Shown one piece after another: positions 4,899 to 8,176 of a DNA stretch of 64,000 nucleotides (position 1 is the stretch's first letter; every line of letters begins with the position of its first letter). The notes under the pieces were generated by a model that saw only the letters and a list, made by a program, of their open reading frames with translations, made no database searches and had not been told where the DNA came from. This stretch comes from Thermohalobaculum sediminis. GTDB taxonomy: Bacteria; Pseudomonadota; Alphaproteobacteria; Rhodobacterales; Rhodobacteraceae. The stretch is from assembly GCF_023487995.1 (NCBI RefSeq), contig NZ_JAMFKN010000003.1, forward strand, positions 1-64,000. The letters run 5' to 3'. The translations under genes and the position numbers were made by a program.

Positions 4899-5890
4899 CG
4901 CGCGCGCCCCTGCGCGACGTCGCGCGCCCCCGGGGGGCCATCGCCCGACCAGCGCGCGCGCAACAGCCCGGCCACCGCCTCGGACGCCGCGTGATCCCAT
5001 GGCCGGACGAGGCGCGCCACCGGCACCGCGCCCGCCAGCGAGGCGACCTCGACGAACTCCTCGCCCCGCCGGCCAAAGGCCTCGGCGAACTGCGGCCGGT
5101 AGACGTTCTCGCCGATCGCCCGCACCGCCTCGAGCAGCGCCAGCGGCTCGATCCGCGGCACCTCTCCCGCATCCGACGCCGCGAGGATCAGGATCTCCGC
5201 CAGCTCGTGCGGGCGCTCCTCGGCGGCGCGGGGATTGGCCAGGTAGAACTTGTCCACCCGGCTCGCGACCCGCGGCCCGGCCGCGCCCGCCAGCCCCGCC
5301 GCGTCGAGCGCGTCGCGCCATAACTTGAAGCTCGTCCCCGACGGATGGATCGCGAAGCGCCCCGCCCCGCCCGCCGGCCACAGCGCCACCGTGTCGTCGC
5401 CCAGGATCGGGCAGCCGGCCACCCCAAGCCGCGCGGCCAGGGTCGACTTGCCGGCGCCGCTGCGGCCGAGGATCAGCGTCGCCCGCCCGCCATGCGCCAC
5501 CGAGGCGCCATGCAGCACCAGCGCACCGCGCTGGAACAGCGCAAGGCCCATCGCCGTCCCCAGCGTGTAGAGCGCGACCATCCCCGGATCGGCGCCCGCA
5601 TCGGGCGCCACGCGGATGTCACGCCCGTCGCGCACCCAGAACGCGCCCACGCCCGCGACCTCGAACGCGCCGCCACCCTCGGTCGGGTCGGCCTCGATCA
5701 CCTCGGTATCCCGCGGCTCGCGGCCCGCGCGCGCCGCCGCGCGGCGCACGACCGCGGCTGCAGCGGGATCGTGCCGGATGCGGATGTCGGCCGGCGCGGC
5801 GCATGGCGAGCGGCGGAACTCCGGCACCTCGAAGTCCGACTGGATCTCGAGGCCGTGCGCGCGATAGCGGAAGCCGCCCGCGCCGGTCAT
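4895..5890 (-). CDS. HPr kinase-like protein (RiPP-associated serine kinase)
   Basis: Resembles the HprK-related P-loop kinases of RiPP and exosortase loci. In paeninodin-type clusters such a kinase phosphorylates the C-terminal Ser of the precursor. Walker A GRSGAGKSTLAARL is followed by GDDTVAL and an IHPSG segment; the N-terminal part starts YRAHGLEIQSDFEVPEF as in related proteins. I chose the ATG at 5890 because homology begins there (331 aa). A GTG at 6073 in the same frame overlaps the ATP-grasp stop by 8 bp and would add 61 low-complexity residues; coupling makes that start possible. The precursor at 8190 ends in Asp-Ser, which fits the proposed substrate. Kinase activity is inferred. 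Confidence 0.8.
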   Translation of the reverse strand: MTGAGGFRYRAHGLEIQSDFEVPEFRRSPCAAPADIRIRHDPAAAAVVRRAAARAGREPRDTEVIEADPTEGGGAFEVAGVGAFWVRDGRDIRVAPDAGADPGMVALYTLGTAMGLALFQRGALVLHGASVAHGGRATLILGRSGAGKSTLAARLGVAGCPILGDDTVALWPAGGAGRFAIHPSGTSFKLWRDALDAAGLAGAAGPRVASRVDKFYLANPRAAEERPHELAEILILAASDAGEVPRIEPLALLEAVRAIGENVYRPQFAEAFGRRGEEFVEVASLAGAVPVARLVRPWDHAASEAVAGLLRARWSGDGPPGARDVAQGRAR

Positions 5891-6065: not shown

Positions 6066-7346
6066 CTAGCCACCCCGCCTGTGCAGCCATGCCTCGACCA
6101 CCGGCCCCAGCGCGCTCTCCGAGCCCGGGATGCCGGTCACGGTCTGCTGGTAGTAGATCGACGTGCCGATGTTGCCCTCCAGGACGACCGGCCCGGAGGG
6201 GGAGATCACCACGTCCCAGGCGACCACCGGCACGCCGCAGTCCAGCATCCGGTGGGCAGCGCTGACGGCGCCGACCGACGCCTCCCAGAACGGCAGTGGG
6301 GCGTCGGGCAGATCGAGGCCCGCGACCGGCGCCAGCCAGTCGAGATGCGACTCCTGCTGGATCTGCGTCGTGATCGGGCGGCCCGAGCCGGGATCGATCA
6401 CGGTGATGCCCATCACCCGCTCCGCCCCCTCGGGAACGAGCGAATACCAGAGCGTCGCATAGGCGAGGGTGACCGCCCCCTCCGGGGCGCGCCCGGTGAT
6501 CATTCGCAGCACCGGAGGAAGCACGAGGTCGGCACGCGCCAGCGCCGGATGCGCCGGGACCATCGGCTGCAGCAGCATCGCGCCATGCCGTGTAGCGAGG
6601 TCTGCGACCCTCGCGCCCAGCGCCTTTCGCTCCAGCGTCAGGGCGGCGCCGGAGGCGCGCTGCCATCTCCCTTCCTCTCGGGGCACCCATGCCTCGAGCC
6701 CCTGCGCGCGGAAGGCCGTGACGGGCTTGAGCACGACCCCGTCGCAGGCCGCCGCAAGCGCGTCGCCAATATCTCCGGGCGCACCCGGCTGGACGACGGC
6801 CAGTGTCGCCGGCACCGGAACGCCCCGCTCGGCCGCGAGCCGCGCGAAGGCCACCTTGTCGTCGCAGAGCGCCCGCGCCGCCGTCGAGGCCAGCGCGCGG
6901 TTGAGGTGACAGAACTCGGCATGGAGGAACCAGCGGTTCGCCTCGGCCGGCCGGTCGGCGGGGACCCGGTAGGCAAACTGCTCGAGCGGCGTCATCCCGC
7001 TCCGCATCGCGCTGCGCCAGAGCGCGAAGGCGCCGGACCATCCCCGCCCGCCGCGCTGCGCAAGGATGCGCGCGGGCCTCAGCGTCATGACCGGCCAGCC
7101 CGCCGCCTGCCCGACGGCGACGAGGACGCGCAGGAAAGGCCCGAACCGCGCTCGCCGCGCCACCCATGCGGCATGCCGGATCTGCGCAGCCCTGTCTGCC
7201 CGCCGACTGCCCGCGGGCGGCCATGGCGCGCCCTCGCCAAGGACGTCGCGATAGCGCGCGGGGTCGAGGACGCGCCGCAGCCTCGCGCGCAGGCCCGCTG
7301 TCATTCGCGCCGGACCCACGGAAATTTCGCGGGGCATCCTCGCCAC
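6066..7346 (-). CDS. ATP-grasp protein (sugar-transfer-associated type) in the RiPP operon
   Basis: An ATP-grasp fold enzyme that would activate a carboxylate as acyl-phosphate and join it to an amine or other nucleophile. The central lysine segment is DGVVLKPV and the C-terminal metal-binding segment is VVAWDVVISPSGPVVLEGN, so the catalytic part looks intact. The N-terminal region (FALWRSAMRSGMTPLEQFAYR) matches the family annotated as sugar-transfer-associated ATP-grasp. It lies between the B2 peptidase (27 bp downstream of it) and the kinase, where a lasso cyclase gene would be expected. It may therefore modify the peptide, for example by ligating an amino acid or closing a ring, but no substrate can be read from the sequence. 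426 aa. Confidence 0.8.
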   Translation of the reverse strand: MARMPREISVGPARMTAGLRARLRRVLDPARYRDVLGEGAPWPPAGSRRADRAAQIRHAAWVARRARFGPFLRVLVAVGQAAGWPVMTLRPARILAQRGGRGWSGAFALWRSAMRSGMTPLEQFAYRVPADRPAEANRWFLHAEFCHLNRALASTAARALCDDKVAFARLAAERGVPVPATLAVVQPGAPGDIGDALAAACDGVVLKPVTAFRAQGLEAWVPREEGRWQRASGAALTLERKALGARVADLATRHGAMLLQPMVPAHPALARADLVLPPVLRMITGRAPEGAVTLAYATLWYSLVPEGAERVMGITVIDPGSGRPITTQIQQESHLDWLAPVAGLDLPDAPLPFWEASVGAVSAAHRMLDCGVPVVAWDVVISPSGPVVLEGNIGTSIYYQQTVTGIPGSESALGPVVEAWLHRRGG

Positions 7347-7373: not shown

Positions 7374-7850
7374 TCAGCGATACCGTCCGACAACGACGTA
7401 ATCCGCGAGGTCCGGAAGCGCGCCGGTCACCACGACATCCCCCACGGTGGTCCAGGCATGAGCGCCGAGCCCCGCCCGGACCCTGTCCTGCCCACCCTTG
7501 CGGCGCAGCCCGAAATGCACCGTCGATGCGATCCCGCGCCGGCGCAGCATCCGCCGCGCGGCAAGCGCGCGCTGCAGGCAGACGGCACGAAAACCGACCC
7601 GACGGCCCACCGCCTCGATCGCGCGCCCCACCGCGACCGCGGCCTGGACCGCCTCGGAGGCAGGCGCCGCGGCTTCCGCCGCTCCCGGCTCGCAGCGACG
7701 CAGGTCCAGCAGACGAAAGTACCACCGCTCCGGCAAGGCGGTCAGGGCCGTGCACAGTGCGATCTCGAGGAGGGCCTCGAACAGGATCGGTCGCGCCAGG
7801 CGGGCCGCCGGAAGGCGGTGCCTCGGGGGTCCCAGAGGCGCGATCATCAT
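7374..7850 (-). CDS. Lasso-type B2 leader peptidase (transglutaminase-like)
   Basis: Predicted cysteine protease that removes the leader from the precursor peptide with help from the PqqD-like partner. The lasso B2 core is visible: Cys91 in FRAVCLQRAL, then RRGIASTVHFGLRR, then His131 in GAHAWTTVGDVVV, with Asp138 a candidate third residue. A hydrophobic segment with FEALLEIALCTALTALP lies near the N-terminus, as in other B2 proteins. I start at the ATG at 7850, which overlaps the stop of the B1 gene (ATGATG); 158 aa is the usual length. B2 proteins almost always occur with an asparagine-synthetase-like cyclase, which is missing here. Confidence 0.88.
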   Translation of the reverse strand: MMIAPLGPPRHRLPAARLARPILFEALLEIALCTALTALPERWYFRLLDLRRCEPGAAEAAAPASEAVQAAVAVGRAIEAVGRRVGFRAVCLQRALAARRMLRRRGIASTVHFGLRRKGGQDRVRAGLGAHAWTTVGDVVVTGALPDLADYVVVGRYR

Positions 7851-8134
7851 CGGGGAGGTTCGATCATCTTCTGATCGAGCAGCGACTCGGCGAACGCGAT
7901 GACCTCGGCGCGGCACACCGTCTCCTCGACGTCGTATTTCTGCGTCAGCAGCGCGACGATATCGTCGATGCTCCGCTCGCCGTCGATCATGTCCCAGATG
8001 TCGCGGGCCGTGTCCTCGAGCATGAGATACTGGCCCGCATCGATGTTCATGAAGATCAAAGCCTGATCGAGCGGCGCCTGAATCACCCCGGGCGCACGTC
8101 TCAGGACAGTATCACGTTGCATTACGCTGGACAT
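7847..8134 (-). CDS. PqqD-like RiPP recognition protein (lasso B1)
   Basis: A small winged-helix RRE protein that should bind the precursor leader and deliver it to the B2 peptidase. The sequence VLRRAPGVIQAPLDQALIFMNIDAGQYLMLEDTARDIW followed by a DDIVALLTQKYDV helix is typical of PqqD/B1 proteins; 95 aa. The ATG at 8134 follows a G-rich tract; a GTG at 8164 and an ATG at 8122 are alternatives. It comes 55 bp after the precursor gene and overlaps B2 by 4 bp. It is not evidence for PQQ synthesis: no pqqB, C or E is present. Confidence 0.88.
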   Translation of the reverse strand: MSSVMQRDTVLRRAPGVIQAPLDQALIFMNIDAGQYLMLEDTARDIWDMIDGERSIDDIVALLTQKYDVEETVCRAEVIAFAESLLDQKMIEPPR

Positions 8135-8159
8135 TCCCCCCGGATTCCGGCTCGACCTC

Positions 8160-8176
8160 GGCACCCGAAGGCTGCC
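8160..8176 (-). promoter_or_regulatory. Hairpin between precursor and B1 genes
   Basis: On the minus strand GGCAGCC-TTC-GGGTGCC can fold with one G-G mismatch. It has no T-run. Hairpins in this position often protect precursor mRNA or lower read-through into the maturation genes; here that role is only inferred. Confidence 0.35.

Follow-up and report, generated by a model that had tools for sequence, protein, structure and literature searches.

The window analysed here is a stretch of 64,000 nucleotides from Thermohalobaculum sediminis. It belongs to contig C32 of a genome of 4.3 Mb, assembled into 43 contigs and 100% complete. The locus holds a row of genes in the order precursor, PqqD-like B1 protein, B2 peptidase, ATP-grasp enzyme, HprK-like kinase and ABC exporter, all on the minus strand (Table 1). 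A leader-bearing precursor together with B1 and B2, as in a lasso cluster, is thus present, and the ATP-grasp gene lies between B2 and the kinase gene, as the preliminary description had placed it. B2 occurs once in the genome; it also scores 65.9 bits against NF033537 (cut-off 33), has its start codon at 7850, and its long ORF shares Cys113 and His153 with the other two of three copies. The kinase homology begins near an ATG at 5890 while the ORF itself extends to 6073. The protein has the P-loop, His and Asp pair of the lasso HprK-type kinases and stands beside a precursor that ends in Ser, and is therefore a putative kinase of that type, with only 29.8 bits against the NCBIfam model HprK_rel_A (cut-off 200). 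The start of the ABC exporter was placed by comparison with the same-genus locus L010, and the leader of the window precursor is similar to that of the precursor at L010:8450-8599.

Table 1. Genes of the cluster, with positions in the window
Feature	Position	Strand	Evidence
Precursor peptide, 41 aa	8190..8315	-	W-x-x-P leader, Thr20, two core Cys, C-terminal Ser
B1, PqqD-like leader-binding protein	7847..8164	-	PF05402, 66.4 bits (cut-off 23.4)
B2 leader peptidase, transglutaminase-like	7374..7850	-	PF13471, 76.3 bits (cut-off 26)
ATP-grasp enzyme, PF14397 family	6066..7346	-	66.7 bits (cut-off 31.4); conserved residues
HprK-like kinase	4895..about 5890	-	P-loop, His188 and Asp226-Asp227 (long-ORF numbering) kept in 5 copies
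ABC exporter	3072..about 4898	-	PF00005, 83.9 bits; probable ATG 4898 within a longer ORF

The ATP-grasp ORF encodes 426 residues and starts at GTG 7346 or ATG 7337. Residues 153-402 match the Pfam family PF14397, 'Sugar-transfer associated ATP-grasp', above the gathering cut-off. Residues D163, K164, K207, R281, T284, W377, D378, E390 and N392 are common to all 12 aligned copies that are linked to RiPP genes. The central Lys and the C-terminal E-G-N site, which had been described as intact, are therefore confirmed as such; we take these residues to be catalytic, as in ATP-grasp enzymes. An AlphaFold2 model built from three sequences has a mean pLDDT of 52.2, and the Foldseek matches shown for it are all ATP-grasp-type enzymes with TM-scores of about 0.2 and an rmsd of about 14 A, so the model supports the assignment to this fold class but no finer detail. 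The best hit in a profile search of solved structures has E = 0.046. Searches of Pfam and NCBIfam gave no match of the cluster to graspetide ATP-grasp models up to E = 1, and the model of RimK-like C-terminal ligases, TIGR02291, gave 21.7 bits, far below its cut-off of 314.2.

The core of the window precursor, as read, is DPTLPGCTPSGVNIPQKCDS. The residues listed for the precursor in the preliminary description, K38, D22 and D40, are found at these positions, and the C-terminal residue is S41. Its leader aligns by eye with those of two peptides from a same-genus genome (G110), one of the cluster and one linked to a cyclase-like gene, on W-T-x-P and a Thr. Known lasso peptides have a leader Thr at position -2, followed by an acidic residue at core position 7-9. 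With the Thr set at -2, acids fall at positions 7 and 8 in the two G110 cores, and the window core, on the same alignment, has no acid at positions 7-9. The rule is soft, as it also fails in some loci with a cyclase: the acid is at position 6 in G082, and in G727 a core beginning at a later Gly is needed to bring it to position 9. The lack of an acidic ring acceptor suggests that the cluster makes a non-lasso, tail-modified peptide. The cores of the window and of the G110 cluster share a Gly-Cys ... Cys pair near the C-terminal Ser, and the two Cys of the window product may form a disulfide. Precursor-like ORFs are repeated at other loci: three similar ones in series, ending in RVGS, KVGS and NVGS, are found at L236:14282-14959, and a tandem of two near-identical lasso-like precursors is found at L080:11437-11777.

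No lasso cyclase, an ATP-dependent Asn-synthetase-like enzyme, was found at the locus or elsewhere in the assembly. Of four matches to PF00733 in the genome three are short, and the sole full-length one (C32:72694), 65 kb from the cluster, is an N-acetylglutaminylglutamine amidotransferase (TIGR03104, 976 bits, cut-off 570). A cyclase hidden elsewhere in the genome was sought with the cyclase-like protein of the relative, and only this amidotransferase was recovered. The product is therefore probably not a lasso peptide. G110 has the same gene row, likewise without a cyclase. That genome also has a second precursor and a cyclase-like gene between genes that we read from their sequences as leuC-like and leuD-like (L087:6770-8860). 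The pair stands alone, with neither B1 nor B2 beside it, and may borrow both from the cluster on another contig. Its cyclase-like gene could also serve that cluster in trans.

It had been proposed that the ATP-grasp gene occupies the position of a lasso cyclase. This is right in that the row has no cyclase and is otherwise not supported by the distribution of the genes. In a sample of the order (292 genomes), PF14397 is found above the cut-off in 53 genomes and B2 in 19. A cyclase-like gene lies in the fetched stretch at 14 of the 21 B2 places and is absent at 7; the ATP-grasp gene accompanies 3/14 of the former and 2/7 of the latter (Fisher p = 1.0). The kinase is present in all five loci of the order with the ATP-grasp gene and also in 11 of the 16 B2 loci that lack it, so that within the order the tie to the kinase is weak by itself. 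The other 51 strong PF14397 places of the order, in 49 stretches, have no B1, B2, HprK or Asn-synthase gene; two of these stretches gave no match to the ATP-grasp profile and several end at contig ends. Four weaker places above the cut-off (G110:C30:354575 and one each in G063, G210 and G196) were left out of this survey.

In a sample of the class (385 genomes, 19 with a match), RiPP partners are beside the ATP-grasp gene in 7 of the 18 other genomes and absent in 11. In a sample of the phylum (398 genomes, 35 with a match), stretches were fetched from 20 genomes and not from nine, and RiPP partners were found in four. The three samples together give 16 genomes with a RiPP-linked ATP-grasp gene, five of them from the order. 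A cyclase-like gene is found in 13 of these, the kinase in 14, PqqD/B1 in 15 and B2 in 11, as counted with profiles built iteratively from these loci, which favour RiPP-linked copies, and with an Asn-synthase profile that does not separate lasso cyclases from their relatives. No cyclase-like gene was seen in the remaining three, the window genome, G110 and G853, the last on a contig of only 7.5 kb. The ATP-grasp enzyme thus recurs as an accessory enzyme in kinase-bearing lasso clusters. Its assignment to the peptide cluster stands, whereas replacement of the cyclase is rejected, as the two genes occur independently in the order and coexist in 13/16 genomes. This coexistence makes it likely that the ancestral role of the enzyme differs from ring closure. 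A linkage of the family to polysaccharide genes only, which had been put forward as one part of the finding that would refute the initial reading, does not hold, given the 16 genomes with RiPP-type partners.

Variations in the make-up of these loci have been observed. The ATP-grasp gene comes directly after the kinase gene in G008 and G142, the two sharing 4 bases. PqqD, an HprK-like kinase, a cyclase-like gene and the ATP-grasp gene occur together with no B2 nearby in G295, G330, G385, G323 and G451 (such clusters are L119, L120, L137, L141 and L142), and G295 (L119) lacks any B2 match in its genome; the genome search around G323 spanned three genomes only. At the B1/B2 locus L229:7343-11436, in G684, a sulfotransferase gene lies between two ATP-grasp genes, and the G330 cluster also holds a sulfotransferase gene. 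Three PF14397-family ATP-grasp ORFs are arranged in series at L121:7827-11848 (G327), whose genus carries three or four copies in each genome and lacks B2. At L151:4548-9158 a PF14397 gene that is not RiPP-linked lies between a decarboxylase gene of the Orn/DAP/Arg type and an argininosuccinate-lyase-like gene, so the members outside RiPP loci are not all in polysaccharide loci. A search of genome contigs for relatives gave two only, Thermohalobaculum xanthum M0105 and Marivita geojedonensis DPG-138. Plasmid searches gave distant matches only, and the one inspected, on pDVUL01, is in a polysaccharide locus.

On a quick tree of 83 ATP-grasp sequences, from which four RiPP-linked genomes of the phylum sample are left out, RiPP linkage requires 3 changes against a mean of 11.4 in shuffled data, and none of 500 shuffles was as low. 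Judged from these sequences, the RiPP-linked copies cluster on the tree, and they may have a single origin. The copies of the window and G110 group together (SH-aLRT 94) on long branches that the program flagged as unsafe. Identity between these two genomes falls from 95% in the sat-cysC flank to 67% for the ABC exporter, 64% for the kinase, 48% for B1, 39% for B2 and 29% for the ATP-grasp enzyme. This gradient would be consistent with an enzyme in contact with the variable region of the peptide, or with gene exchange.

The C-terminus of the precursors may indicate where the ATP-grasp enzyme acts. In related clusters the kinase phosphorylates the C-terminal Ser, as reported in PMC8498205. All 11 precursors from searches that did not require a C-terminal Ser end in Ser; those of G385, G672, G684 and G727 came from searches that did require it and are excluded from this count. 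All precursors were chosen visually from lists of pattern matches, that of G684 is doubtful, and none was found for G853. Gly or Ala precedes the Ser in 11/15 genomes with the ATP-grasp gene and in one of eight kinase-only loci (p = 0.009, post hoc). Counted by genus and with G684 dropped, the numbers are 9/11 and 1/8 (p = 0.005), the pattern having been seen before the test. The eight comparison loci leave out L071, whose precursor ends in Pro, L084 and L087, where the kinase was not found, and L075 and L085, where no precursor was found. The window precursor ends in D-S and that of its same-genus relative in C-S; both are outside the pattern and count against such a site of action. G684, which has two ATP-grasp genes and showed no kinase over 19 kb, also counts against action at the C-terminus.

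Recurrence with the Ser kinase, the Gly/Ala-Ser pattern and the divergence gradient nevertheless favour action at the C-terminus. The following sequence of steps can be proposed. B1 would bind the leader and B2 would cut it off, and the HprK-like kinase would phosphorylate the C-terminal Ser. The ATP-grasp enzyme would activate a carboxylate as an acyl phosphate, most likely that of the peptide C-terminus next to this Ser, and join it to an amine, for example an amino acid. The ABC protein would then export the product, which in the window is probably a tail-modified non-lasso peptide with its two Cys perhaps as a disulfide. Gene content, conservation, the lack of a cyclase in the assembly and its independence from the ATP-grasp gene are observed, and the substrate, site and bond of the ATP-grasp enzyme are inferred. 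We see about an even chance that it is an accessory, non-ring-forming ligase of a lasso-type RiPP cluster acting at the C-terminus. Chemistry at the C-terminal carboxylate, offered as the alternative to macrocycle formation in the preliminary description, survives as the preferred, leading hypothesis, which could equally well prove right or wrong.

Other roles have to be weighed against this one. The ATP-grasp enzyme may have taken over ring closure in the genus after loss of the cyclase, forming a lactam or lactone as in graspetides, which we consider improbable. The window genome has no cyclase, the ATP-grasp gene has diverged to 29% identity with its same-genus copy and is intact, and graspetide ATP-grasp enzymes form such rings, as described in PMC13003496. 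The bond would link the N-terminus, Lys38 or a Ser or Thr to Asp22, to Asp40 or to the C-terminus. However, 13/16 RiPP-linked copies have a cyclase-like gene in the same stretch, acids are few in the window core, a cyclase-like gene of the same-genus relative is paired with a separate precursor at another locus (L087), and a ring from Gly32 to Asp40 would leave a tail of one residue.

It is unlikely, if slightly less so, that the enzyme acts on a phosphorylated or glycosylated Ser instead of the backbone carboxylate, for example by adding an amino acid or amine onto a sugar on the Ser phosphate. The kinase is present in 14/16 genomes and the PF14397 family is also found among sugar genes. G082, G559, G672 and G727 carry nucleotidyltransferase-like genes in the same stretch, G008 and G142 weaker and remote ones, and this class of enzyme glycosylates the phosphate in pseudomycoidin (PMC8498205). 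No such gene is found in the first 20 kb of the window, however, nor in the fetched stretch at 10/16 loci. It is very improbable that the enzyme's product is a small building block or part of a cell-surface sugar with no relation to the peptide, and that its gene is in the cluster by chance or as a relic. The PF14397 genes of the order are mostly outside RiPP loci (49/49 other stretches) and the ATP-grasp gene diverges fast, but the linkage recurs in 16 genomes, its place and order are equal in both members of the genus, and the conserved residues are intact.

The cluster may, at somewhat under an even chance, represent a lasso-derived RiPP class without ring closure, a linear or disulfide-looped peptide set free by B1 and B2, with its C-terminal Ser phosphorylated by the HprK-like kinase and with an extension or cap added to its C-terminus by a PF14397 ligase. 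The two modifications would be an undescribed pair that also occurs on true lasso peptides of Pseudomonadota. If so, a group of enzymes that tailor peptides would be hidden in PF14397, labelled by standard annotation as sugar-transfer proteins. Lasso peptide engineering would gain a new way to modify the tail, and the module of lasso leader and peptidase would be shown to be able to serve ringless peptides. No description of this ATP-grasp gene in lasso clusters was found in the literature searched, mostly papers open without subscription and including PMC8498205, PMC8939145, PMC13003496, PMC12427821 and PMC5067487. What is new here is the recurrent ATP-grasp gene in otherwise known kinase-bearing lasso clusters.

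RimK attaches Glu at the C-terminal end of ribosomal protein S6. It is among the ATP-grasp fold matches of the window model and would be a model for C-terminal addition, but the sequence match is only at the edge of noise. Graspetide synthetases are likewise ATP-grasp enzymes in RiPP clusters; in contrast, the window enzyme matches no graspetide model, the core is poor in acids, and B1, B2 and the kinase are present. The PF14397 enzymes of polysaccharide loci, such as that on plasmid pDVUL01, have the same Pfam domain, whereas the neighbours in the window are RiPP genes and the RiPP-linked copies group on the tree. The kinase-bearing lasso clusters of Proteobacteria and Firmicutes (paeninodin and the Sphingobium yanoikuyae type) differ from the window, whose genome lacks a cyclase, whose cluster has the ATP-grasp gene added, and whose core has no acid at positions 7-9 by the Thr alignment. 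They share with it the precursor with leader and core, B1, B2, the HprK-like kinase, the ABC exporter and the C-terminal Ser.
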